This document shows, piece by piece, positions 4,264 to 36,337 of a stretch of DNA of 37,257 nucleotides (its first letter is position 1; the number at the start of each line of letters is the position of its first letter). Both the position numbers and the translations under genes were made by a program. The stretch comes from an uncultured Flavobacteriales bacterium (GTDB lineage: Bacteria; Bacteroidota; Bacteroidia; Flavobacteriales_G; Salibacteraceae), in the NCBI GenBank assembly GCA_913062955.1, contig CAJXZP010000040.1:1-37257 (forward strand), in the 5' to 3' direction. A model generated the notes under the pieces. It made no database searches. It was not told the origin of the DNA and saw only the letters and a program-made list of their open reading frames with translations.

Positions 4264-4974
4264 TTAGAGATCTACTCGTTGTTCTTCAAAACGAATGTAA
4301 AAAAGTGGGGTAATTTTACCGGCTTCAATTTCTTTATCGATATACGGAAATAACTCGGGCCAAAAACTTTGGTTGGGATAACTATCTATTTGGCCTAGTA
4401 AAAAGAAGTAGGCGGAATTAAAGGCATTTCCTGTTTTTGAATAAGTCGGATATCCATTTGTTTTTACGTGATGCATGAAACTTTCAAAAAGTGTTTCATC
4501 TGTCTTAATATCACTATTAGGGTCCTTTTGCTGACGTATGTAATTTTCATTCGCAATAGAGTCGATACAGTTCCTGAAATTGGTGTCAATGGATGCTAAA
4601 TGAATTGCTTGTAAAGAATCTTGTTTGAGTAGGAGATCTTGATAGCTTTTTGAATTGTAATAGGGGGTAAGATGGTCTACCGTAATATAATTTGGATCCC
4701 ATCCTTTGGTGAATCCTTTTTCTAAATAATAAGAAATTTTATCATAGTTACCCGTACTATAAACGGTCATGGCGATGGATATGTAAATGCCAGGATCAAA
4801 ATCAATAAGGGATAAAGCGGAATCGTAATATATTATTGCGGAGTCATATTGGTTTTGGGCGGAATGAGTTCTTGCGCTAGTGACTAGTTCGTTATAGGTG
4901 CGGTATTTTTCTATTTGCGAAAAGCCAGTAAAGTTCGCCCCTATTAGAAATAGGGTTAATATGTATTTTGTCAT
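4264..4974 (-). CDS. Secreted TPR-like protein of unknown function
   Basis: 236 aa with a cleavable Sec signal (MTKYILTLFLIGANFTGFSQ, cut likely after FSQ). No lipobox cysteine is present. Residues about 25-110 look like tetratricopeptide helices (TARTHSAQNQYDSAIIYYDSAL, then YSTGNYDKISYYLEKGF), with the spacing of a TPR pair. The C-terminal half has no motif I recognise. The product probably sits in the periplasm or the outer part of the envelope. It converges with the dehydrogenase gene, with a one-base gap and no obvious shared terminator. Confidence 0.6.
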   Translation of the reverse strand: MTKYILTLFLIGANFTGFSQIEKYRTYNELVTSARTHSAQNQYDSAIIYYDSALSLIDFDPGIYISIAMTVYSTGNYDKISYYLEKGFTKGWDPNYITVDHLTPYYNSKSYQDLLLKQDSLQAIHLASIDTNFRNCIDSIANENYIRQQKDPNSDIKTDETLFESFMHHVKTNGYPTYSKTGNAFNSAYFFLLGQIDSYPNQSFWPELFPYIDKEIEAGKITPLFYIRFEEQRVDL

Positions 4975-5022
4975 AAATAGGAAATGAATGGATTAAGGAA
5001 ACTGAATTTTGATGACCGTATT

Positions 5023-5583
5023 TTAATTCGGGTAACGAAAACAATCTATAGTATGATCATTTACCAGGCCACTCGCTTGCATGTGAGCATACATGATGGT
5101 ACTGCCACAAAACTTGAATCCACGCTTTTTTAGGTCTTTACTTAAAGCATCACTTTCTTTGGTGGTTGCAGGAACCTCGCTACTCTGTTTCCAATGATTA
5201 ACAATGGGGGTATTATTTACAAACTGCCAGATATAGGTATCAAAGGAGCCAAATTCTTTTTGAACTTCTAGGAATAGTTTGGCGTTTGTAACCGCACCAT
5301 TTATTTTGAGTTTATTCCGAATTACTCCGGGATCCAGTAGAATACTATCAATTTGTAGAGAGGTGAATTGGGCGACTTTCTCTACCTCAAAATTGGCGAA
5401 TGCTTTTCTATACCCTTCTCTACGTTTTAAAATGGTGGCCCAGCTTAATCCTGCTTGCGCACCTTCTAGTATTAAAAACTCAAAATGGACTTTATCGTCA
5501 TGTACGGGAACTCCCCATTCTGTATCGTGATATTCCTGGTAAGCCTCAAACTGGTTAGTGGCCCATTGGCATCTCCTTTTCAT
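5023..5583 (-). CDS. tag: DNA-3-methyladenine glycosylase I
   Basis: A 186-aa base-excision repair enzyme that removes 3-methyladenine from alkylated DNA. Zinc ligands expected from E. coli Tag are all present: Cys5 and His19 at the N-terminus (RRCQW...YHDTEWG) and His177 and Cys181 near the end (NDHTIDCFRY). The core motifs LILEGAQAGLSWATILKRREGYR and KLKINGAVTNAKLF match the helix-hairpin-helix glycosylase fold. Length equals the family norm. The near-consensus box TACCTTTT lies only 4 nt before the ATG, so the mRNA may be leaderless. Confidence 0.95.
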   Translation of the reverse strand: MKRRCQWATNQFEAYQEYHDTEWGVPVHDDKVHFEFLILEGAQAGLSWATILKRREGYRKAFANFEVEKVAQFTSLQIDSILLDPGVIRNKLKINGAVTNAKLFLEVQKEFGSFDTYIWQFVNNTPIVNHWKQSSEVPATTKESDALSKDLKKRGFKFCGSTIMYAHMQASGLVNDHTIDCFRYPN

Positions 5584-5620
5584 GGAGAAAAGGTACGGAT
5601 TTCAAATTATTGGAAAAAGA

Positions 5621-5667
5621 AATAGCCGTCCATTAACCAAAAAAAAATTTTGTAGCGGACGGCTATT
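5621..5667 (-). terminator. Terminator of rpoD
   Basis: Arms AATAGCCGTCC and GGACGGCTATT are perfectly complementary over 11 bp, with a 25-nt loop that itself carries an A/T run. It lies 15 bp after the rpoD stop; in the minus direction T-rich sequence follows. Confidence 0.75.
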
Positions 5668-5681
5668 CCCCAATTTATTAT

Positions 5682-6551
5682 TTATCCTAAATAAGGACGC
5701 AATTGGTGACTGCGGGAGGATGTTTTTAATCTTCTGATTGCCTTTTCCTTGATTTGGCGAACACGTTCTCGTGTTAATCCATACATACCGCCAATTTCTT
5801 CTAAGGTATGTGCCGTTCTGGACTCTAAACCAAAGTATAAACTCAATACATCCGACTCTCGTTTGGCAAGAGTGGAAAGGGAACGTTTAATTTCTTGTTT
5901 TAATGATTCTGTTATTAATTTTTGATCTGGATTGGCCTCATCATTTTCTTGATACAAATCGTACATGCTACGGTCATCTCCGCCATCGCCAACCAGGGGT
6001 GCGTCCATGGATACATGACGTTGGTTATTTCGCAAAGAGCTTTTTACGTCCTTTATCGAAATATCCATGATTTCTGAAATCTCAAAAGCGGTAGGAGCAC
6101 GCTCCATATCTTGTTCTAATTTTGAAAATACCTGATTGATTTTGGATATAGTACCAATTTTGTTTAACGGTAAACGTACAATACGTGATTGTTCTGCTAA
6201 TGCCTGAAGAATAGATTGACGAATCCACCATACCGCGTAAGAGATAAATTTAAATCCACGAGTTTCATCAAATTTCTTTGCGGCTTTAATGAGTCCTAAA
6301 TTACCTTCATTAATTAAATCAGGCAATGTTAATCCTTGGTTTTGGTATTGTTTAGCTACAGAAACAACAAAGCGTAAATTTGCTCTAGTCATTTTGTCTA
6401 GGGCTTCTTTATCCCCCGCTCTAATAAGTTGTGCGAGTTCTACTTCTTCCTCCGCTGTAATTAAGCTTAACCTTCCAATTTCTTGAAGGTATTTCTCCAA
6501 AGAGGCCGTTTCACGATTCGTGATTTGTTTCGTTATACGTAATTGTCTCAT
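5682..6551 (-). CDS. rpoD: Primary RNA polymerase sigma factor (sigma-70, Bacteroidota short form)
   Basis: 289 aa, the compact primary sigma usual in Bacteroidota, without the long region 1.1 or non-conserved region. Region 1.2 is [24 protein letters not shown]. Region 2 contains [37 protein letters not shown] (about 85-120), including the -10 recognition helix. Region 3 is around [23 protein letters not shown]. Region 4.2 is [27 protein letters not shown] (about 245-272). It directs RNA polymerase to the TAnnTTTG/TTTG promoters seen across this window. It lies just downstream of the pnp terminator and has its own terminator, so it is probably transcribed alone. Confidence 0.96.
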
Positions 6552-8970: not shown

Positions 8971-9240
8971 TTACTTTCTTAATCCAAGCTCTTTTACAAT
9001 TGCTCTGTAACGAAGAACGTCAATTTTAATTAAGTAATCTAAAAGACTTCGTCTTTTACCTACTAAATTCATTAACGCTCTTTGCGTGTTGTAATCTTTT
9101 CTGTTTTTTTTCAAATGCCCAGTTAGGTGAGCAATTCTGAATGTGAAGATTGCGATTTGAGCTTCAGATGAACCAGTGTTTGCTTCTGATCCTCCATGCT
9201 TGGTAAAAAATTCTTTTTTCTTTTCAGCTGATAAATACAT
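8971..9240 (-). CDS. rpsO: 30S ribosomal protein S15
   Basis: 89 aa, the standard length. The family motifs NTGSSEAQIAIFTFRIAHLTGHLKKNRKDYNTQRALMNLVGKRRSLLDYL and YRAIVKELGLRK are complete. S15 is an early 16S rRNA-binding protein of the small subunit. It has its own -7 box 47 bp upstream and a terminator directly downstream. Confidence 0.98.
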   Translation of the reverse strand: MYLSAEKKKEFFTKHGGSEANTGSSEAQIAIFTFRIAHLTGHLKKNRKDYNTQRALMNLVGKRRSLLDYLIKIDVLRYRAIVKELGLRK

Positions 9241-9287
9241 TCCAATATTGTTTTTAATGATTTTTATGTATCGAAAAATTCGAGCGG

Positions 9288-9295
9288 CAAATATA
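9288..9295 (-). promoter_or_regulatory. -7 box of the rpsO promoter
   Basis: TATATTTG on the minus strand, 47 nt before the rpsO ATG and after the accD stop. A short inverted repeat (AGCAT/GTGCT) sits just upstream. Confidence 0.55.
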
Positions 9296-24132: not shown

Positions 24133-25153
24133 TTGGTTGTTCCTTCGAAATATACTAACCAACTAACGAACGGTTTTTTACCCTTGAGGATCCTGATTCT
24201 TGCTGCCAAGAAAGAATTAACTCAAGTATGTAAACAAGGAAATGTAACAATAGATGATGTTTTTAGATATTACTCGCCTGTTTTTAGAGGTAGAAATAAA
24301 GATAAGAGTAAAGAGGTTGGTTTAAGAAAATTTTATTCTGAGAACAATTATGAAAAACTTAAAAATGAGAGTTTAATAACTGAAATGTTACAGTTAGCTA
24401 ATTTCTGGAGATATCTCGATGTGGGTGTGCTCCCTGACAATGACATTAATTATGTAGTTTCAGAAGAAGCTAAAAAGCAAATTCATTGTTTAAATTGTTA
24501 TCCTAATGATTTTTGGAAATATGCGAAGTGTTTTCTTCTTACAAAATAATAATAGGGAGTCTTTTGATCATGATTTTGTTGCTTTTCTAAAAGAATTATT
24601 TACTGAATTCATTCATAAGCCTACGGTTAATGCGATTAAAGATGATATATATGCGACATGTATTTCGATAATTGATAACAACACCTTAAGGTATAAAATT
24701 CAATGGAACGAGGAATAGTTGAGAAAGGATTTTGATAACTATTCGTCTTCAAGAATCTTTAGAGGCCTACTTTTATTGGATGCGTATCTTAAACCGGCTC
24801 AAGAAAATCTGATTAGATCAACTTTTGATATTGAACATATTTTTCCAAAAAAATGGCAAAACACAAACTATAATGGTTGGAGTATTGAAGATGCTAGTAA
24901 TTATTTAGATCGTTTGGGTAATAAAATTGTTTTTGAAAAGAAATTAAATATCCAAGCAGGTAATGGGTATTTTGGAATTGAAAAACAGAAACATGCTTTA
25001 TCAGGTATTGCCAGTGTGATTGATTTAGGTAGCTATGAAAAGGATGATTGGCTAAAAGAAGATATTGAGTTAAGAGAAATTGAATTGAAAAATAATATTA
25101 TTTCTTTTTTGAAAACGGAGTTATCAATACCAAATGATTTGATTGTAGGCTAG
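24133..25153 (+). pseudogene. Broken DUF1524 (HNH, GmrSD-like) nuclease gene
   Basis: Three pieces read as one protein. The first runs from 24133 to 24547. A frameshift at about 24530-24545 moves the reading to the frame ending at 24718. An in-frame TAG at 24716-24718 interrupts that frame, and it continues to 25153. The last piece has the HNH-like DIEHIFPKKWQ and NYLDRLGNKIVFEKKLN typical of DUF1524, the C-terminal nuclease domain of GmrSD/DUF262-type defence proteins. The usual N-terminal DUF262 (ParB-like NTPase) part is missing: the reading begins directly at a REP-like half element. The intact ancestor was probably a type IV restriction-like or phage-defence protein. Two or three independent lesions argue against a sequencing error. 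Confidence 0.75.
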
Positions 25154-25519: not shown

Positions 25520-25577
25520 ATAACGTTTCAATAAAGAAACATAATAGCCTATATTTGTATCATTAAAGAAACGTTAT
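25520..25577 (+). promoter_or_regulatory. hipBA promoter and operator pair
   Basis: The 10-nt palindromic arms ATAACGTTTC (25520-25529) and GAAACGTTAT (25568-25577) lie 38 nt apart; a third half-site GAAAC lies at 25536-25540. The -7 box TATATTTG (25550-25557) lies between them. A TTTC at 25526-25529 stands 20 nt upstream, in place of the -33. The right arm overlaps the hipB ATG. HipB binding here would block both promoter and start. Confidence 0.75.
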
Positions 25578-25887
25578 GGCAAATAGGAGTCCTGTGATAT
25601 TCCCAAAAGGAAAACGAATTTTAACCGATTTAGGAGAGAATATTAAGATGGCACGTTTAAGAAGAAAACTAAGCAGTGCTCAAGTTGCCGAGCGTGCGGG
25701 TATAGGTCGCTCTACTTTAGTGAAAATAGAAAAGGGTTACCCGGGTGTGGGTATTGGTCATTTTTTAAATGTGCTTCGTGTTTTAGGTTTGGAGCAAGAC
25801 TTTTTAATGTTGGCAAAAGATGATGAACTAGGCAGAAAACTACAGGATGCCAACTTAACAACCAAAAAACGCGCGCCAAAAAAGTAA
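25576..25887 (+). CDS. hipB: HipB-like antitoxin, XRE-family regulator
   Basis: 103 aa. An XRE helix-turn-helix covers about residues 17-75 (LGENIKMARLRRKLSSAQVAERAGIGRSTLVKIEKGYPGVGIGHFLNVLRVLGL). A short basic tail (NLTTKKRAPKK) follows. It would neutralise the HipA kinase and repress the operon. hipA starts 6 nt after the stop. This is the intact core of the accessory island. Confidence 0.88.
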   Translation: MANRSPVIFPKGKRILTDLGENIKMARLRRKLSSAQVAERAGIGRSTLVKIEKGYPGVGIGHFLNVLRVLGLEQDFLMLAKDDELGRKLQDANLTTKKRAPKK

Positions 25888-25893
25888 AAGAGA

Positions 25894-27174
25894 ATGGCCA
25901 AAGTAAAACGTAAAAGAGAAGTATTTGTTTATGCCGATTGGCAAAATATAACCACCCCTCAATTAATGGGTGTGTTAAATGTGGAGTTGTTGCGGGGTAA
26001 AGAAATTTTCTCATTCGAATATAACAAGGAGTGGCTCAAGTCTAAGCATGCACAAATACTAGACCCAGACCTTCAGCTATATCCAGGTAAGCAATTTTTG
26101 AACGATGGAACAAAGACAAACTTTGGTCTTTTCTTAGACTCGTCTCCCGACCGATGGGGAAGAGTGTTAATGCGTAGAAGAGAAGCCGCACAAGCGAGGG
26201 TAGAAAAAAGGATGGAAAACACCATGTTTGAAACTGATTATTTATTAGGTGTTTTTGATGGCCATAGAATGGGGGCCTTAAGATTCAAGTTAGAGGAGGC
26301 GGGACCATTTTTAAACGACAACAAAAACTTGGCAAGCCCGCCATGGACCTCCATTCGTGAGCTGGAACAAATAAGTCTTCGCTTAGAACAGGATGATGTT
26401 TCAACTAACCCAGAATACTTGAAATGGTTGAATATGTTAGTCGCTCCAGGGTCTTCACTTGGGGGTGCCCGTCCTAAAGCGAGTGTGGTAGACAACGACA
26501 ACAATCAATGGATTGCTAAATTTCCAAGCAAGAATGATGATACTGATATGGGTGGCTGGGAATTGGTGGTTCATAAACTAGCCCAAAAAGCAGGAATAGA
26601 TATGGCCGAGGCTAAGGCACAAAAATTCTCGTCTAAAAATCACACTTTTTTAACGAAACGTTTTGATAGAAAACAAGATGGCACGCGTATTCATTTTGCT
26701 TCTGCAATGACCCTTTTAGGATACACCGATGGACAAGATTATACCGAAGGAGTTAGCTATTTAGAGTTGGCAGAGTTTATTACCAATCAAAGCGTTTCTG
26801 TACAAGAAGACTTAGCGCAACTATGGAGAAGAATAGTTTTTAGCATTTGTGTTTCTAATGTAGATGATCACTTGCGAAATCATGGTTTTATATTAACCTC
26901 TACCGGGTGGAGATTGTCTCCGGCCTATGATATAAATCCAGTTGAATTTGGTACAGGCCTGAAGCTGAACATTTCGGAAAACGATAACGCTTTAGATATA
27001 GATCTTGCATTAGAAGTAATCCCCTACTTTAGAATTAAAAAAGAAAAGGCAGAAGTAATTATTAAGGAAGTGAAAACGGCTGTTAGCCATTGGAAAGAAG
27101 TGGCAAAAATCACCGGCCTATCTAACAAGGAAATAGAATTAAAAGCGAGTGCATTTCAAATTGCTTTAACATAA
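25894..27174 (+). CDS. hipA: HipA-family serine/threonine kinase toxin
   Basis: 426 aa, full length. Order: N-terminal subdomain with FSFEYNKEWL; NFGLFLDSSPDRWGR; the autophosphorylation loop VAPGSSLGGARPKA (about residue 187 on); ATP-binding region WIAKFPSKNDDTDMGGWELVVHKLA; catalytic SNVDDHLRNHGF; and metal-binding SPAYDINP. All kinase motifs are kept, so the protein looks active. Known HipA toxins phosphorylate aminoacyl-tRNA synthetases (glutamyl-tRNA synthetase in E. coli) and cause growth arrest; the target here is unknown. A type I restriction gene once followed directly, seven bases after its stop. Confidence 0.9.
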   Translation: MAKVKRKREVFVYADWQNITTPQLMGVLNVELLRGKEIFSFEYNKEWLKSKHAQILDPDLQLYPGKQFLNDGTKTNFGLFLDSSPDRWGRVLMRRREAAQARVEKRMENTMFETDYLLGVFDGHRMGALRFKLEEAGPFLNDNKNLASPPWTSIRELEQISLRLEQDDVSTNPEYLKWLNMLVAPGSSLGGARPKASVVDNDNNQWIAKFPSKNDDTDMGGWELVVHKLAQKAGIDMAEAKAQKFSSKNHTFLTKRFDRKQDGTRIHFASAMTLLGYTDGQDYTEGVSYLELAEFITNQSVSVQEDLAQLWRRIVFSICVSNVDDHLRNHGFILTSTGWRLSPAYDINPVEFGTGLKLNISENDNALDIDLALEVIPYFRIKKEKAEVIIKEVKTAVSHWKEVAKITGLSNKEIELKASAFQIALT

Positions 27175-28607: not shown

Positions 28608-29846
28608 ATGAATTTATCAAAAAAATTACCATTAATAATTACTGTAATTCTTATTGGTCTTTCTCTTTTTAGCGTATTTGAGGAAAGGGCACTATTTTTT
28701 GTAAGTGATGTATATAAAAAAAATGTCAGCTTTTTGGCGTTAACCACCGAGATAAAGTTGGTGATGGCCGGGTTAAGTTCTATGAACATCCCATTTATAG
28801 CGGGGTATACTTCTGATTTAAATGTCACCATAGAAAAGGTTCAAGAATTTCTTCTGCTTACAAATGTCATTTCATTTTTGCAGGTAATATTGATTTCCAT
28901 TAGTAAAAGTTGGATATTAAAAATCATTACTCTGGTACTTTTCGGTTTGTGTTTTCTTAAAAAAACGAAAGTAATAAGCTCTAAAATATTACTGTTATCC
29001 TTGGCGTTAAATCCAGGGCTCATCCTATTTTCGGTAGGGGTACAACAATTATCTCAGGAAGCCTCGATAGACTATGGTGGGAAATATCTGGAAAAATTAA
29101 AGGCCTCGGTACATGCGGGTAAGTTGGAGAATGCGAAATTAATGAAGCAACATGCGAGTGATCTGGCGAAAATTCATAATGGTCAAAAAGGAATTCAAAT
29201 ACTAAACGAATTCAAGGAAGCTATTTCGTATGATTTTAAAAAAGTTAAATCAGACATTAAAGGGGCAAATGCCAATATTCGACTTCTAATTCATGAGGGA
29301 GGCCATGAGTTGACCACTAAATTATTTGGCTTTGGTTCCATGATTATTTTTAATATGGTGATTCTTCCCATTGGCTATGTTTTGCTCATTTATATTTTGT
29401 TTAATTCTTTATTTAAAACCAAGGAAATGGAGTTGGCTGAAAACCCTTTGGCGGCCATTAAAAATGGCGCGTCCAATGTGAATAAACCTACTTTTAAAGG
29501 GAAGTTGAACAATCTATTTAAAACGTACTTGGAAGAGTTCCATTCCATTCCCAAGACCGTGGATCAGTCTTCGGTTTTTCAAAATGGAATATCAAATATA
29601 GAGGAGCTAGAAGGCAAAATAGTTTCGAAGGCGAAGGCTGTGGATCATGAAAAAGAGGATACATTGAAGTCAGAGGAAACCAAAGAACTAGCTACATTAA
29701 AAGAAGAGGCAGAGGACAAAATAAGTCAAGTAAAAACGAGCATTAAAGAAGAAGTTAATCCAATAAAACACACGGTAAATCATCCTGAAAATGGCGAAAG
29801 TACGCCCTCGATAAAGAAGAATAAACCTCAGGTACTTTCCATTTAA
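28608..29846 (+). CDS. Membrane protein with a long charged C-terminal tail, unknown function
   Basis: 412 aa. Hydrophobic segments lie at about 8-28 (PLIITVILIGLSLFSVF), 85-125 (VISFLQVILISIS, ILKIITLVLFGLCFL), 128-150 (ILLLSLALNPGLILFSVGVQ) and 240-270 (MIIFNMVILPIGYVLLIYILFNSLF). Between the last two is a helical soluble part (YLEKLKASVHAGKLENAKLMKQHASDLAKIHNGQKG). The last about 110 residues are Lys/Glu-rich and probably coiled (SEETKELATLKEEAEDKISQVKTSIKEEV). I do not recognise the family. It lies 16 bp after the GH25 lysozyme, so a wall-related role is possible but not shown. Confidence 0.7.
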   Translation: MNLSKKLPLIITVILIGLSLFSVFEERALFFVSDVYKKNVSFLALTTEIKLVMAGLSSMNIPFIAGYTSDLNVTIEKVQEFLLLTNVISFLQVILISISKSWILKIITLVLFGLCFLKKTKVISSKILLLSLALNPGLILFSVGVQQLSQEASIDYGGKYLEKLKASVHAGKLENAKLMKQHASDLAKIHNGQKGIQILNEFKEAISYDFKKVKSDIKGANANIRLLIHEGGHELTTKLFGFGSMIIFNMVILPIGYVLLIYILFNSLFKTKEMELAENPLAAIKNGASNVNKPTFKGKLNNLFKTYLEEFHSIPKTVDQSSVFQNGISNIEELEGKIVSKAKAVDHEKEDTLKSEETKELATLKEEAEDKISQVKTSIKEEVNPIKHTVNHPENGESTPSIKKNKPQVLSI

Positions 29847-30966: not shown

Positions 30967-31039
30967 TTGGGGGTGTTTAGAGGAGTCCAATACCTCCAAA
31001 TGTGCTATAATTTAAGTTTTCCTATGGACCGAAGTCGTG

Positions 31040-31047
31040 TATATTTG
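31040..31047 (+). promoter_or_regulatory. -7 box upstream of the first AraC gene
   Basis: TATATTTG, an exact TAnnTTTG match. It lies only four bases before an in-frame ATC (31052) that stands where an ATG would be expected. Confidence 0.55.
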
Positions 31048-31111
31048 ACCCATCAAAAATAAAATCCCCATATACAAAATAGGTGAGGCAGATCACTCCC
31101 ATTATATTGAG

Positions 31112-31915
31112 GTGTTGGAGTTGCAAGAGCGGAATAGCTACGATACTTCCAAACCTCATAAACACGAATACATAGAGATTTTCTTATTTTCCAAAGGAGG
31201 AGGAACCCATGCCATTGATTTTAAAGAATACCCCATTGGCGATTCATCCGTACATTTTGTGTTTCCCAACCAAATTCATAAGGTAAAGCGTGAATTAGAT
31301 ACGCATGGCCATGTGGTATTGATATCTAAAGAGTATTTCTCGGATCTGGACTATGAGTTATATGTACAGTTTTTTCATGCCTTTTATTTGCAACCTACGT
31401 TGAATCTGTCGGTAGTGGATTTTGGGCAGGTTTTTGGGGTTTTGGATCCAATGAAAAACGAGTTGCAATCATGCCACCTGTTTTACCAATCTATCGTAAA
31501 AGATTACCTACATGTGCTGATCAAACTCTTTATGCGTCAAAGGTTAAATTCCAATTCCATTCGAGGTGTAAATAACAAGGATTTTAAATTATACATGGAT
31601 TTGGTTTTTTTAGTAGAAAATCAGTTTATCCATCATTTCCCAGTATCCTATTTCAACGAGACTTTACAAGTATCCTTACGGAAACTTAATACGGTGTGTC
31701 AAAAATTCCACTCGACTACTTGTTCAGGTGTCGTACATGACCGAATTGTGCTAGAGGCTAAAAAGCTTTTAGTACATACGGATAAATCCGTAAAAGAGGT
31801 CATGTTTGCTTTAAACTATAAGGATGCCGCCTATTTTAACCGGTTCTTTAAAAATAAAACAGGCTATACACCATCTGAGTATAAATCGAAAAATGTAGAT
31901 AAGTACCACAAATAG
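31112..31915 (+). CDS. AraC-family transcriptional regulator (start uncertain)
   Basis: 267 aa from a GTG at 31112. An N-terminal cupin-like sensor (PHKHEYIEIFLFSKGGGTHAIDFKEYPIGDSSVHFVFPNQIH) is followed by a C-terminal double helix-turn-helix (about 175-262: SLRKLNTVCQKFHSTTCSGVVHDRIVLEAKKLLVHTDKSVKEVMFALNYKDAAYFNRFFKNKTGYTPSEYK). The frame is open 21 codons further upstream and resembles the N-terminus of the paralogue at 35453-36337, but its first codon is ATC (31052). The secreted propeller gene begins 60 bp after the stop and is a likely target. Confidence 0.85.
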   Translation: MLELQERNSYDTSKPHKHEYIEIFLFSKGGGTHAIDFKEYPIGDSSVHFVFPNQIHKVKRELDTHGHVVLISKEYFSDLDYELYVQFFHAFYLQPTLNLSVVDFGQVFGVLDPMKNELQSCHLFYQSIVKDYLHVLIKLFMRQRLNSNSIRGVNNKDFKLYMDLVFLVENQFIHHFPVSYFNETLQVSLRKLNTVCQKFHSTTCSGVVHDRIVLEAKKLLVHTDKSVKEVMFALNYKDAAYFNRFFKNKTGYTPSEYKSKNVDKYHK

Positions 31916-31928
31916 GCGGGTTTGTCTC

Positions 31929-31959
31929 TTGACATCATTAACGAGGTAGGTGAGCTTTG
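31929..31959 (+). promoter_or_regulatory. Promoter of propeller gene 1
   Basis: TTG at 31929-31931, 20 nt, then GAGCTTTG at 31952-31959 (one mismatch to TAnnTTTG). The same pair with the same spacing recurs exactly 1642 bp downstream. Confidence 0.65.
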
Positions 31960-31975
31960 TGGGAAATCTAAAACT

Positions 31976-33211
31976 ATGAAAAAAACATTTATTTTAACCC
32001 TAGGGATTTGCTTAGCCTCCATAGGATATTGCCAAGTGTGGCAACCAGTTGAAGCTGGAACGACCTTAAAATTAAACTCGGTTTCTTTTGGCTCCCAACT
32101 CGTAGGTTACATTGGAGCGAACGACAGTACTTTATTAAAGACCATGGATGGTGGACAAAATTGGACGGTTCATCCCACTACAGGATTTCGGTTTTCTACC
32201 CGATTGCCCAATATTACGCATGTTGAATTTGTGACTGCCGATACCGGTTTTGCCATGTTGGGCTTAGCGCCTTTTGATGGGTATATGTATAAAACAATAG
32301 ATGGCGGGAGTCATTGGACTCCCGAAGTCGTAAGTATGTGCTCTCCTATTTTTACGTATCATTTTGATAGCGAAAATGCATACATCATTGGGTCTAGTTG
32401 TTTTGGAGGTAAAACGATCAATAAAAAAGTAAATGGGGTAATACAACCCAATACGACCTATTTATCATGGGGCAACGAATATTTGAGAACCATTTCTTTT
32501 TACGATACACTGTACGGTATTGCGGCTGGCGATAGTGGTACGGTACACCGAACGTTTAATGGTGGGGTGTCGTGGGATACTGTAACCACTTTTTCGGACG
32601 AAATTATTTGGGACCTACAATTTGTCAATGACAGTACTATTTATGGGGTCGTAGATTCTTTGTCAAATACCTTAATGTTCAGTACCGATTCGGGGGCTAC
32701 TTGGAGTCATCATTCGCAAGCACTGACATTTATTTCCCCTAAATTTAAGGCGTTAACAGGAATGCAGAATGAAGGTGTAATTGCAGTGGGGTCAGCAGTT
32801 CAGGCCCAGATTGGTTTTATTACTTGGGGCAGTGAATCTTCCTTTTTGTGGGATGTGCAAACCGCTCCACAGATTTTAAATAATGTAACGGCTGTGAATG
32901 ATACCCTGGCTTTTGCGGTAGGCGATAGTGGTTTAATCATGGCTAACTGGGGCATAGTTAATGGAGTGGATTCCCCAGAGTTGAAATTGGAGATTCGGGT
33001 TTACCCAAACCCTGCAAGTCATCAAATTTCAGTGCAATCGGAGCAAGGGGAGATTCAACGAGTTACGATATTCGACTTATTGGGGCGCACAGTACAACGG
33101 GTGACGTATGATTTTGAGCAAATTCAGGTAAACCAACTCCCACCAGGACTCTATCAAGTAATGGTAGAAACAAAGGGGAGCCGTGAGGTGGTTAGCGTAG
33201 TGATTGAGTAG
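31976..33211 (+). CDS. Secreted YCF48/BNR-repeat beta-propeller with T9SS sorting domain, copy 1
   Basis: 411 aa from the ATG at 31976, which opens a signal peptide (MKKTFILTLGICLASIGYCQ). Repeats of the BNR/YCF48 kind follow: SVSFGSQLVGYIGAND-STLLKTMDGGQNWTV, FVTADTGFAML-MYKTIDGGSHWT, YGIAAGDSGTVHRTFNGGVSWDTV, TLMFSTDSGATWSH and LAFAVGDSGLIMAN. The last about 75 residues are a T9SS sorting domain (LEIRVYPNPASHQISVQ ... LPPGLYQVMVETKGSREVVSVVIE). It is probably a surface or released binding protein; no enzyme motif was seen. It is a clear paralogue of 33618-34853. Confidence 0.85.
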   Translation: MKKTFILTLGICLASIGYCQVWQPVEAGTTLKLNSVSFGSQLVGYIGANDSTLLKTMDGGQNWTVHPTTGFRFSTRLPNITHVEFVTADTGFAMLGLAPFDGYMYKTIDGGSHWTPEVVSMCSPIFTYHFDSENAYIIGSSCFGGKTINKKVNGVIQPNTTYLSWGNEYLRTISFYDTLYGIAAGDSGTVHRTFNGGVSWDTVTTFSDEIIWDLQFVNDSTIYGVVDSLSNTLMFSTDSGATWSHHSQALTFISPKFKALTGMQNEGVIAVGSAVQAQIGFITWGSESSFLWDVQTAPQILNNVTAVNDTLAFAVGDSGLIMANWGIVNGVDSPELKLEIRVYPNPASHQISVQSEQGEIQRVTIFDLLGRTVQRVTYDFEQIQVNQLPPGLYQVMVETKGSREVVSVVIE

Positions 33212-33225
33212 GACTAAGACTAAGA

Positions 33226-33254
33226 CTTGGGGGAGTAGTTAATGTTCCCCCAAG
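33226..33254. terminator. Hairpin after propeller copy 1
   Basis: A 9-bp perfect stem CTTGGGGGA/TCCCCCAAG around an 11-nt loop, 14 bp after the stop. No T tract follows. A homologous hairpin follows copy 2. Confidence 0.55.
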
Positions 33255-33258
33255 CCTT

Positions 33259-33479
33259 CATCAACCATGTTAATATACCCCATTTTATCTGGTTCTAACA
33301 CTACGTACAAAATAAAATCCCGTTCCATTTCGAGACCGAAAAACAAGAGCCATGGTAGAGAAGGGTAACTGTGCTGAATAACAGAATTGTACTAACGTAT
33401 AAAGCCTTATCTCGGGTTCGGGTAAATGAGTAAGAACGGTCGTGTTTTCTTTAATACAAAAGGATGATGAGAGATTAAG
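33259..33479. other. Gene-free stretch between the two propeller units
   Basis: No gene was seen. A 13-nt AAAATAAAATCCC (33309-33321) also occurs near the start of the AraC gene (31057-31069), so a heavily eroded AraC copy may have stood here. That is weak evidence in A-rich sequence. Confidence 0.3.
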
Positions 33480-33557
33480 TTAGGTGATATTAAAATGAAA
33501 ATGGCTAATTGTTATCTGAGTGAAAAGTGAGAATATGCAGATAAGTACCACAAGTAG
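33480..33557 (+). pseudogene. Decayed 3' end of a duplicated AraC gene
   Basis: 33503-33557 aligns with the last about 54 bases of the AraC gene (31862-31915). Both have GGCTA, then ATCTGAGT, then GATAAGTACCACAA(A/G)TAG. The copy has a one-base indel and internal stops, so it is not coding. It marks the left edge of the second duplication unit. Confidence 0.75.
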
Positions 33558-33570
33558 ACGGTTTCGTCTC

Positions 33571-33601
33571 TTGACACCAAGACCTAGGTAGGTGAGCTTT
33601 G
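33571..33601 (+). promoter_or_regulatory. Promoter of propeller gene 2
   Basis: TTG at 33571-33573, 20 nt, then GAGCTTTG at 33594-33601, the same geometry as copy 1. The distance to the ATG is also identical. Confidence 0.65.
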
Positions 33602-33617
33602 TGGAAAATCTAAAACT

Positions 33618-34853
33618 ATGAAGAAATCACTTATGTTAACGGTAGGAATTTGCTTAGCTTCTCTAAGTTATGCCCAAGTGTGGCAACCTATTGATGCAGG
33701 AACGACTTTAAAACTAAACTCGGTGTCTTTTGGTTCCGAACTCGTGGGCTACATTGGAGCGAACGACAGTACTTTATTTAAAACCACAGATGGTGGAGAA
33801 AATTGGACGGTTCAACCCACGCAAGGAATTCAATTTACGGCACAATTATCTAATATTACGCAAGTCGATTTTGTGAGTTCAGATACGGGCTTTGCAATGG
33901 TTGGTGAGGCTATATATGCTGGTAATATGTATAAAACAGTAGATGGGGGCAGTAATTGGACCTTGGAGTTTTCTAGCATGTGTTCGCCTATTGCTTTTTA
34001 TAATTTTGATAGTGAAAATTCATTTTTGGTCGGCTCAAGCTGTTTCGGAGGGAAAACCATAGACCAAAAAGAAAATGGCGTTTGGGGGAGTAATTCCGTT
34101 TACTTATCGTGGCAGAATGATTATTTACGAACGATTACATTTTACGATAGTCAATATGGTATGGCTGCTGGCGATAGCGGTACAGTACATCGTACTTTTG
34201 ATGGGGGGCAAACTTGGGATACCATTCATACTTTTACAGATCAAATTATCTGGGATTTACATTTTGTCAATGACTCTGTCATTTTGGGAGTGGTTGATTC
34301 CTTACAAGTTTCCATGATGATTAGTACCGATTCGGGAAGCACATGGGCTCCAGAATTAAATTCATTGAGTTTTCAATATCCCCATTTAAAGTCAATCATC
34401 GGAATGAAAAATGGAGGTGTAATTGCGGTGGGTTCTAGTTTGCAGCCTGTAACTGGTGTTGTTTTATTGGGTGACGAAGATTTACAATCATGGGGTACAA
34501 TCCCTACCTCAGAAGTTCTTAACTCGGTAGCAGCTGTAAATGATTCCATTGCATTTGCAGTAGGAAATAATGGATTGGTTATGTCTAATAGAGATATTAT
34601 TAATAGTGTTCCAGTTCTTGATCAAGATGTTCAAATATGGGTATATCCAAATCCTGTAAACTCTTATTTTACAGTTCGTGCAGCATCTAGTACGATTCAA
34701 AAAGTGGTTTTATATGATGTGTTGGGTCGACCCGTTTTAGAGGTTTTGCAAAATTTTGATCAAATTGATGTAAGCCATTTGGCCCCTGGTTTATATCAAA
34801 TGGTGGTAGAAGCAGAGGGGAATCGAAAAGTAATGTCTCTAATAGTAGAGTAG
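33618..34853 (+). CDS. Secreted YCF48/BNR-repeat beta-propeller with T9SS sorting domain, copy 2
   Basis: 411 aa, the same length as copy 1. It has the same layout: signal peptide MKKSLMLTVGICLASLSYAQ, repeats such as SVSFGSELVGYIGAND-STLFKTTDGGENWTV and YGMAAGDSGTVHRTFDGGQTWDTI, and a sorting domain VQIWVYPNPVNSYFTVRA ... LAPGLYQMVVEAEGNRKVMSLIVE. The two copies agree well over most of their length by eye. They differ most in the region before the sorting domain and in its first half. This copy lacks an intact AraC gene directly upstream. Confidence 0.85.
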   Translation: MKKSLMLTVGICLASLSYAQVWQPIDAGTTLKLNSVSFGSELVGYIGANDSTLFKTTDGGENWTVQPTQGIQFTAQLSNITQVDFVSSDTGFAMVGEAIYAGNMYKTVDGGSNWTLEFSSMCSPIAFYNFDSENSFLVGSSCFGGKTIDQKENGVWGSNSVYLSWQNDYLRTITFYDSQYGMAAGDSGTVHRTFDGGQTWDTIHTFTDQIIWDLHFVNDSVILGVVDSLQVSMMISTDSGSTWAPELNSLSFQYPHLKSIIGMKNGGVIAVGSSLQPVTGVVLLGDEDLQSWGTIPTSEVLNSVAAVNDSIAFAVGNNGLVMSNRDIINSVPVLDQDVQIWVYPNPVNSYFTVRAASSTIQKVVLYDVLGRPVLEVLQNFDQIDVSHLAPGLYQMVVEAEGNRKVMSLIVE

Positions 34854-34863
34854 GGAAAATAAT

Positions 34864-34886
34864 TGGGGAGTAGTTAATGCTCCCCA
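34864..34886. terminator. Hairpin after propeller copy 2
   Basis: A 7-bp stem TGGGGAG/CTCCCCA with a 9-nt loop TAGTTAATG, homologous to the copy 1 hairpin. Stem length changed on both arms together (five G and five C in copy 1, four and four here), so the structure has been kept. Confidence 0.6.
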
Positions 34887-34920
34887 TACCTTACATGATC
34901 CATTTTATCGGTAAATATGT

Positions 34921-35202
34921 TTAAGAATTCAAGTTTAATATTCGTATGACCTCCACTGTATTGACCAAATCGGCACGGTAGTATATGTGGTACTCTTCCA
35001 TTTGCAATACACGATACCCATCCCGAGTATTTTCTATAGATTTTCCAATAGTGAAATTATTCGCAATTTTTCTTAGTTGAGAGATGAGGTGCGTGTATAA
35101 TTCATCGGCTTCTTTTATAGAACCTGTGGTTAACGCTTGCTTCCAATGGAGCTCTAAATCGGAAATGGCCATCTCGCTTATTAATAGTTTGGATTTACTC
35201 AT
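34921..35202 (-). CDS. ParE/RelE-family toxin
   Basis: 93 aa. Matches the RelE/ParE pattern: LLISEMAISDLELHWKQALTTGSIKEADELYTHLISQLRKIAN, then GKSIENTRDGYRVLQMEEYHIYYR and VEVIRILN at the C-terminal strand. ParE proteins poison DNA gyrase; RelE proteins cleave mRNA. The helical N-terminus and the GYRVLQ...HIYYR strand favour ParE. It overlaps the upstream antitoxin gene by 8 bases. Confidence 0.82.
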   Translation of the reverse strand: MSKSKLLISEMAISDLELHWKQALTTGSIKEADELYTHLISQLRKIANNFTIGKSIENTRDGYRVLQMEEYHIYYRADLVNTVEVIRILNLNS

Positions 35203-35419
35203 GCTCTTTTTGATGCAATTGTTGCAAATGATTTTTTGGATTGAAATTGGCTAAAACAGAACTGTTTTCTCCCGCAATTAGTTTTTGTATCAGAATGGTA
35301 TTTAACCGTGTTTCTTCTTCTCCAAATTTCAATAAGGTTTTCAAGAGCTCCTTATTGATAGAATTTTCTTTCAATGACGGCAGCTGTCTGTTTGGTGTGC
35401 GTTCTTCTTCCTTTTTCAT
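35195..35419 (-). CDS. ParD-like antitoxin, N-terminus possibly altered
   Basis: 74 aa. The C-terminal part FGEEETRLNTILIQKLIAGENSSVLANFNPKNHLQQLHQKEHE follows the toxin-binding tail of ParD antitoxins (EEE...GE.S..V.NF.P..HL..LH.K). The region ENSINKELLKTLLK could be the second helix of a ribbon-helix-helix. The beta strand and first helix expected before it are not convincing (MKKEEERTPNRQLPSLK). The frame stays open upstream to the stop of the AraC gene (35453-35455), so the antitoxin may start at a non-ATG codon or be truncated. Confidence 0.7.
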   Translation of the reverse strand: MKKEEERTPNRQLPSLKENSINKELLKTLLKFGEEETRLNTILIQKLIAGENSSVLANFNPKNHLQQLHQKEHE

Positions 35420-35452: not shown

Positions 35453-36337
35453 CTAACGTAAATAAAACTGTTTAAACTGACTGGGTGTTTTCCCTGTTTG
35501 GGTTTTAAACCATCGGGAAAAATACGGATAATCCTTAAAACCCAATTCAAAAGCCGTAGGTGTTAGTTCGCTATCTGGGTGTACTAACATCCGTTTTGCT
35601 TCCAATAATACCCGTGCGTTTATTAATTGAGAAGTGGTTTTCCCGACCGCATTTTTACAAATGCGGTTTAAATGTTTGGAGGTCATATTCATTTTTTGTG
35701 CATATACGTTGGGTAGTTTTTCAAGTTTAAAATCGGTATCGATAAAGCGTTCCAATTGATTAAGCTTGGAAAGATAACTAGGGGAAAGCCCTGTTTTATC
35801 GGAGGGAGAATGGGTTAGTTGTTCCGAAATTTCAATGTAAAATACATCGATTAAACTGCAAACTTTCTCCGCTTTAGAAATGGATGGTATAGGATGCTCA
35901 GATAGTAGTACCCTAAATGTGTCTACTGTTTTTTCTGTTTGTTGGACATTTAATTGTAAAAAGGGTGGAAAGCGTAGGGAGTGAAAAATTGGAAAGTCGG
36001 TAATGCTTTTTCTCGCAAATTGACTGTCGTAGAATTCTCTAGAATGAAAAAAAATATAACCTTCAATATCATCCGATAGTTCCCAGCTATGGGTTTGGCC
36101 GGGATGTAAAAAAAACAAAGCCCCTGGTCTAATGGGGTACGATTTAAAATCAACTTCATGGATGCCATGCCCATGGGTAAAACACACCGAAAGGTAAAAA
36201 TTGTGTTTGTGTGGGGTCGTTACCGTAGTGTGATTACATTTTAAATGCTGCGAAAATGTATTGGCATAAAAGGATTCCTCACCCGAAGTGTTTTGAAACT
36301 GTTCGATATTTAAAATAGGATACTCTTTATCTGGCAT
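35453..36337 (-). CDS. AraC-family transcriptional regulator
   Basis: 294 aa. It has the same layout as the AraC gene at 31112: a cupin-like sensor (TPHKHNFYLSVCFTHGHGIHEVDFKSYPIRPGALFFLHPGQTHSWEL) and a C-terminal double helix-turn-helix (YAQKMNMTSKHLNRICKNAVGKTTSQLINARVLLEAKRMLVHPDSELTPTAFELGFKDYPYFSRWFKTQTGKTPSQFKQF). It reads away from the DUF983 gene and toward the ParDE-like pair. A -7 box TACTTTTG ends 7 nt before the ATG. Targets are unknown. Confidence 0.93.
   Translation of the reverse strand: MPDKEYPILNIEQFQNTSGEESFYANTFSQHLKCNHTTVTTPHKHNFYLSVCFTHGHGIHEVDFKSYPIRPGALFFLHPGQTHSWELSDDIEGYIFFHSREFYDSQFARKSITDFPIFHSLRFPPFLQLNVQQTEKTVDTFRVLLSEHPIPSISKAEKVCSLIDVFYIEISEQLTHSPSDKTGLSPSYLSKLNQLERFIDTDFKLEKLPNVYAQKMNMTSKHLNRICKNAVGKTTSQLINARVLLEAKRMLVHPDSELTPTAFELGFKDYPYFSRWFKTQTGKTPSQFKQFYLR

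Follow-up and report, generated by a model that had tools for sequence, protein, structure and literature searches.

The locus

The window analysed here is a 37,257-nucleotide stretch of contig CAJXZP010000040.1 (assembly GCA_913062955.1) from an uncultured Flavobacteriales bacterium of the Salibacteraceae. Towards its 3' end lies a gene for an AraC-family regulator (AraC1), followed on the same strand by two genes for propeller proteins of the YCF48 type, propeller 1 (P1) and propeller 2 (P2), both with the C-terminal sorting tail of the type IX secretion system (T9SS) and separated by the remnant of an AraC gene. As an evolutionary event the duplication is unremarkable; the useful result is that the AraC/propeller pair is conserved in other genomes and comes with a candidate operator. 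The features of the locus are as follows.

31040-31047, forward: -7 box-like element of AraC1, TATATTTG, common to the window and a second genome of the genus (G001) in an alignment of both upstream regions (consensus TAnnTTTG, as given in an excerpt of PMC9723704)
31049-31915, forward: AraC1, AraC-family regulator (open frame 31049-31912, then a stop; the first ATG, GTG or TTG is the GTG at 31112)
31737-32191, forward, with its copy at 33378-33833: less-diverged tract, by third codon positions, comprising the AraC tail, the promoter and propeller codons 1-72
31920-31929, forward: operator-like element before P1, in register with AATTGTACAT or AATTGTATAT of three other modules
31952-31959, forward: -7 box-like element of P1, GAGCTTTG, picked by eye; its first base departs from TAnnTTTG
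31976-33211, forward: P1, 411 amino acids (aa), YCF48-type propeller with T9SS type A sorting tail and likely signal peptide (Pfam, TIGR04183)
33226-33254, forward: hairpin 3' of P1, without a T-run (fold z -3.66, equalled by 0 of 200 shuffles)
33378-33557, forward: AraC remnant, 3' part only, frameshifted (local alignment, divergence simulation)
33562-33571, forward: position of the operator-like element before P2, placed by the offset of 1642 from P1, P2 not being among the aligned rows
33594-33601, forward: -7 box-like element of P2 (sequence comparison)
33618-34853, forward: P2, 411 aa, domains as in P1 (Pfam, TIGR04183, AlphaFold2, Foldseek)
34864-34886, forward: hairpin 3' of P2, without a T-run (fold z -2.75, equalled by 2 of 200 shuffles)

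The tandem repeat

The initial annotation had described a tandem duplication with an offset of 1642 bp and no indel from the AraC tail to the propeller ATG, and the alignment agrees, with positions 31890-32189 and 33532-33831 being 84% identical over 300 nt with zero indels. The similarity extends outside the coding sequence: of the 63 bases that begin with the AraC stop codon and lead up to the propeller ATG, 54 are identical between the copies, and the -33/-7 spacing is preserved as had been proposed, the distance from the TTG to the -7 element being the same in both. The second unit has also kept its 411-aa gene, which aligns with the first without gaps at 58.6% aa identity (synonymous divergence, dS, 1.48; non-synonymous divergence, dN, 0.30; Nei-Gojobori). 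The hairpins are preserved after both genes, at a spacing of 1635 rather than the 1642 of the repeat; with up to two mismatches allowed, the window's genome (G000) has their pattern nowhere else, and G001 and G002, the latter a further genome of the genus, lack it.

The AraC remnant is frameshifted and represents the 3' end only, as had been annotated, but it measures about 180 bases (33378-33557) and not about 54 (33503-33557). By local alignment it starts at 33378, corresponding to 31737 in AraC1, and contains small gaps; upstream of 31890, 103 of 148 aligned bases are identical, evenly over the codon positions (34/49, 33/48 and 36/51). With 33503 onward deleted, the score was reached by 0 of 500 dinucleotide shuffles under both scoring schemes. 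The spacer in front of it (33273-33377) is weakly similar to AraC 31000-31736 (a score reached by 3 of 200 mononucleotide shuffles) and to 30970-31110 (reached by none of 200). The idea of an eroded AraC copy stands in so far as this copy is truncated and frameshifted; that it was formerly a whole gene is uncertain, and a later copying of the tail together with the promoter fits equally, the remnant being less diverged than the remainder of the duplication.

The assembly, which is 95.76% complete, yielded only these two copies of the promoter region (next match E 0.175), and a dispersed repeat was ruled out by the confinement of hairpin and promoter to these two places. The promoter region holds no known RNA at the Rfam gathering thresholds, at which the window gave two matches elsewhere, and neither 5' leader is more stably folded than its shuffled versions.

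The third, inverted AraC-type gene that had been pointed out at 35453 is present, and lies outside both the repeat and the module. Its relative in G001 (54%) sits between relatives of ParE and DUF983 with order and orientation kept (2801213-2803046), in a block about 14 kb from the G001 module; this conserved block, and a position outside the module AraCs in the tree, rule the gene out as a third module member. In the window the ParE-type toxin gene (34921-35419, reverse strand) is overlapped at its start by a 74-codon open reading frame (ORF), which is likely to be the ParE antitoxin.

The propeller proteins

P1 matches PSII_BNR (1.8e-11) and Por_Secre_tail (3.1e-11) in Pfam, and in both propellers the two domains exceed their curated cut-offs, PF14870 (PSII_BNR) with 44.3 and 41.4 bits against 27. 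The TIGR04183 sorting domain scores 42.7 bits in P1 and 41.0 in P2 against a cut-off of 23, so that by their C-terminal sorting domain both proteins are like T9SS type A cargo (TIGR04183/PF18962); no enzyme domain was found in either. The C-terminal sorting region has matches at ten further places in the window's genome.

An AlphaFold2 model of P2 from a 17-row alignment has a predicted local distance difference test score (pLDDT) of 85 and a predicted template modelling score (pTM) of 0.72, a first model built from two sequences (pLDDT 34) having been discarded. Among solved structures its best Foldseek matches are chains of the photosystem II assembly factor YCF48/HCF136 (PF14870, NF010237; PDB 2xbg, 5ojr), with a best E of 6e-14 and a template modelling (TM) score of 0.75 to the target; over the first 12 rows TM to the target is 0.67-0.76 at an identity of 15-18%. 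A second structure comparison (VIA-align) placed a designed seven-bladed propeller in the top row (Z 29.2), the top 50 rows being mostly WD40 proteins tied at Z 28-29, with a YCF48 chain in none of those 50. The structural match of P2 spans residues about 17-329 and the remainder is the sorting tail; residues 2-17 are modelled as a helix at low confidence, followed by Q20, which may correspond to a signal peptide, and P1 has a putative N-terminal signal peptide.

By the PSII_BNR profile and the propeller fold, the latter predicted for P2, these are YCF48-type propellers. They differ from YCF48/HCF136 in having a T9SS tail and in falling far below the NF010237 cut-off for orthologues (42.1 and 49.7 bits against 326). 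The YCF48-type propellers considered here occur outside photosynthetic organisms. We would expect them to be exported by Sec and the T9SS to the cell surface, where they would most likely act as binding proteins. A phage origin was rejected, there being no tblastn match among 50,697 phage records and no PHROG at 0.01.

The AraC1 regulator

AraC1 has the C-terminal helix-turn-helix and the N-terminal cupin-like domain of the AraC family, with Pfam matches to HTH_18 (9e-18; 64.8 bits against a cut-off of 33.6), HTH_AraC (30.6 against 26.6 bits) and AraC_binding (3.5e-5; 24.0 against 21.1 bits), and is 59% identical to the AraC of G001. An intact start and a complete N-terminus were not found. 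A TGA at 31046 precedes the open frame, in which only CCC ATC AAA AAT AAA come before the IPIY motif, whereas the AraCs of G001 and G089, the latter a further genome with the pair, have an ATG immediately before VPIY/IPIH. The element TATATTTG is nine bases nearer to this motif in the window than in G001, and because of its position, applying the rule that the -7 box lies at -12 to -5, the transcript would start at the ATC. Translation of AraC1 may begin at the GTG at 31112, about 20 residues short; otherwise the gene is failing or the assembly contains a base error.

The pair in other genomes

With P2 as query at a threshold of 1e-30, 4 of 149 relatives matched the propeller, the window's own genome among them. 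A profile search of the class (395 genomes, 1e-25) gave a match in 20 genomes, again including the window's, a search of the order (42 genomes) in five, and a sample of the phylum (395 genomes, 1e-40) in the window's own genome only; in the class and phylum searches four candidates were scored per genome, which makes absence there weak. Most loci from the genome searches were taken with a 1.5 kb flank. Module members served to build the profiles and so score highly by construction; the AraCs of the genomes G232, G191 and G282 and of the locus L065 were, however, each found with an AraC profile that did not contain them. With an AraC profile from three modules an AraC was found directly upstream of the propeller in G232, G191 and G282, and a separate scan found the same in L065 (JABXHO010000027.1), a Flavobacteriales metagenome-assembled genome (MAG).

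Within the propeller clade of 12 rows that contains P1 and P2, seven of the ten testable members are preceded by an AraC on the same strand (P1, G001, G089, G232, G191, G282 and L065), the other three being P2 with its remnant and L045 and L066 with no AraC; the count omits L067, with upstream sequence of about 250 bp, and G142, whose contig stops within the gene. Two weak AraC-profile matches near other propellers, in L079 (28 bits, 3.2 kb off) and L130 (36 bits, a very long ORF), were not taken as module AraCs. Outside the clade, 0 of 7 propellers in the tree have an AraC upstream. The pair spans six genomes of four families (f1, f5, f11 and f29) and a named MAG, and its outer flanking genes differ in the ORF lists. 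The regulator/surface-protein pair suggested by the initial annotation is thus found in conserved order elsewhere. The propeller is patchy, with matches in three of eight genomes of f29, one of nine of f11 and one of ten of f5; within the genus, the pair was found outside the window's genome in G001 alone, in single copy, and G002 has no propeller match. A module that multiplies, as had been envisaged, is not what the counts show: this assembly has just two copies, and there is one propeller match each in G001, G089, G191, G232 and G282, the five genomes covered (thresholds 1e-25 or 1e-40), to which that of L065 does not belong.

The module AraCs occupy one side of a branch in the tree with support of only 68/40, and 0 of 500 label shuffles were as low. 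The AraC closest to them, at 4843-5748 on the reverse strand of the G003 locus (L039 2266-5748), has one gene away on its own strand a gene for a 682-aa protein, the end of which resembles a T9SS tail by eye.

The promoter and candidate operator

When seven upstream regions (P2 omitted) were aligned on -7 anchors picked by eye, P1 and G001 being related rows, a common block appeared about 30 bases before the box that was matched by 0 of 5000 mononucleotide shuffles. The element AATTGTACAT in G232 and L065, or AATTGTATAT in G089, precedes the -7 box by exactly 32 bases; it follows the AraC stop by five bases in G089 and L065, and by about 60 in G232. AATTGTAYAT occurs once each in the loci L017 (12.0 kb), L043 (4.3 kb) and L065 (11.2 kb), each time at the operator-like position. 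In G232 (L043 1337-1400) the module AraC ends early, with about 50 extra bases between its stop and the operator-like element.

In flavobacteria TAnnTTTG is the -7 box, located at -12 to -5, according to an excerpt of PMC9723704, and the element would be well placed for an activator in contact with the polymerase at the -33 region. AraC1 may bind a AATTGTACAT-like site a few bases past the AraC stop, adjoining the -33 region, and would then activate both propellers through their retained promoters. We propose that, with one AraC able to act in trans on both promoters, the second AraC was unneeded, only its tail being present. The ligand sensing and switching suggested in the initial annotation are likewise putative.

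Age and history of the duplication

In topology tests with P1, P2, G001 and four outgroup propellers, the whole gene prefers P1 and P2 as sisters with respect to G001 (approximately unbiased (AU) test, alternatives p 0.015 and 0.003), and codons 241-411 alone do likewise (0.028 and 0.014); each of the two shares ~51% identity with the one propeller that G001 has. As judged from these sequences the duplication is most likely lineage-specific, following the split from G001, yet old, given the 58.6% aa identity and dS of 1.48.

Divergence between P1 and P2 is uneven along the gene, 51 of 72 third positions being identical in codons 1-72 versus 153 of 339 afterwards (Fisher 8.5e-5), and comparisons with G001 have no third-position step at codon 72 (p 0.29 and 0.36). 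The remnant (103/148) is also less diverged than the third positions of codons 73-411 (Fisher 7e-7) and resembles those of codons 1-72, its gaps having been chosen to fit. When a remnant was simulated with 55% of its bases changed, as in the later third positions, the observed score was obtained in 1 of 300 runs, and with 40% changed in 193 of 300. Because codons 1-72 are far less diverged at third positions, the AraC tail, promoter and 5' coding end were probably homogenised after the duplication, with selection on them as another possibility, and because of this likely homogenisation there is no need to assume that the second AraC was ever complete.

On balance we think it probable that a dedicated AraC and a secreted YCF48-type propeller constitute a conserved two-gene module of the Bacteroidia, of which the propeller, with the preceding AraC tail and promoter, underwent a tandem duplication once the lineage had separated from G001; the propellers would then have diverged, and a further round of homogenisation probably affected the AraC tail, the promoter, the signal peptide and the first blade. 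A number of observations weigh against this. The clade members L045 and L066 have no AraC neighbour, and a tree that unites the nine module propellers in one clade is rejected (AU p 0.0002) because L045, L066 and L067 fall among the module propellers, which suggests that the AraC neighbour was lost at times. The nearest outside AraC, that of G003, joins the module AraCs at 92/94 and has no propeller beside it. AraC1 has no ATG, GTG or TTG before 31112 and its relatives start about 20 residues earlier, and given the missing canonical start it may be weak or dead in this genome. In addition to the -7 anchors being picked by eye, AATTGTAYAT is absent from the loci of G282 and G191, and the block in the window is far from the consensus (GTTTGTCTCT for P1 and TTTCGTCTCT for P2). 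As for the history, codons 1-72 (0.089, 0.089) and 73-240 (0.40, 0.17) alone leave the topology undecided, the low-divergence segment has p 0.02 on third positions, a stricter test on codons for the same residue gives p 0.077, and one control with G001 is likewise uneven (segment codons 98-328, p 0.0015).

A different history, which we hold to be possible but clearly less probable, is that AraC and propeller were copied as a full unit and that the second AraC, once working, lost its 5' part and its frame, in which case there was no gene conversion and the 5' likeness reflects selection on the promoter, signal peptide and first blade. The sister relation of P1 and P2 over the whole gene and the frameshifts in the remnant fit with it, the weak similarity in the spacer hints at further AraC-side sequence, and the keeping of the noncoding hairpins makes selection on short noncoding parts plausible. 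It is countered by the remnant, which without codon-position bias is less diverged than the later third positions, and by codons 1-60, which have no special conservation relative to G001 (55% of residues identical versus 51% overall). It would seem unlikely that AraC and propellers are neighbours in a frozen gene order with no functional link, as the pair is kept across the four families and the named MAG despite differing outer flanking genes and the element stands at a fixed spacing, even if the missing AraC neighbours of L045 and L066 and the missing start codon of AraC1 are in its favour. More doubtful still is a surface-display cassette whose front stays constant as its body changes, in which a dedicated AraC with its operator just behind its own stop would travel with a T9SS propeller. 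After duplication, recombination would preserve the likeness of the operator, the promoter, the signal peptide and the first blade as the remainder of the propeller diverges, so that one regulator would command more than one surface binder. That the propellers are two old independent genes, alike in their coding region only, is scarcely credible; the high overall divergence (dS) could be cited for it, and the noncoding identity, the hairpins, the remnant and the sister relation of P1 and P2 all stand against it.

Other features of the window

Positions 24133-25153 contain a GmrSD_C domain fragment (PF07510, 3.3e-12) behind a separate ORF with no Pfam match, and this is probably a broken GmrSD/DUF262-type restriction gene adjoining HipBA (25576-27174). 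The two Rfam matches are a transfer-messenger RNA (tmRNA) gene (2564-2960) and a Flavobacteria-type S15 leader (9238-9295), both on the reverse strand. A 412-aa protein encoded at 28608-29846 has a membrane-bound look by eye and no Pfam match at 0.01.

Comparison with known systems and significance

Among the papers listed in the literature survey (titles and abstract openings) there was no functional record of this T9SS-tailed YCF48 propeller subfamily, nor was the pairing of an AraC with a YCF48/T9SS propeller described in any of them, many subscription papers lying outside that survey. The module resembles the AraC-YSIRK antigen pairs of streptococci (TIGR04094), such as Spy1337-R28 of Streptococcus pyogenes, where, according to an excerpt of PMC7098570, an AraC-type gene likewise adjoins the gene of a surface-exported protein and is proposed to be its activator. 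In those pairs the genes are divergent and the protein has a YSIRK signal and an LPXTG cell-wall anchor, whereas here the genes share a strand and the protein is a YCF48 propeller with a T9SS tail; AraC1 is itself not a member of TIGR04094 (32.3 bits against a cut-off of 200). A dedicated regulator with a candidate operator offers a handle on these proteins, as the signal of the AraC would tell when, and probably why, the propeller is displayed, and the comparison with the AraC-YSIRK pairs suggests that local AraC control of surface proteins may have arisen in unrelated phyla.

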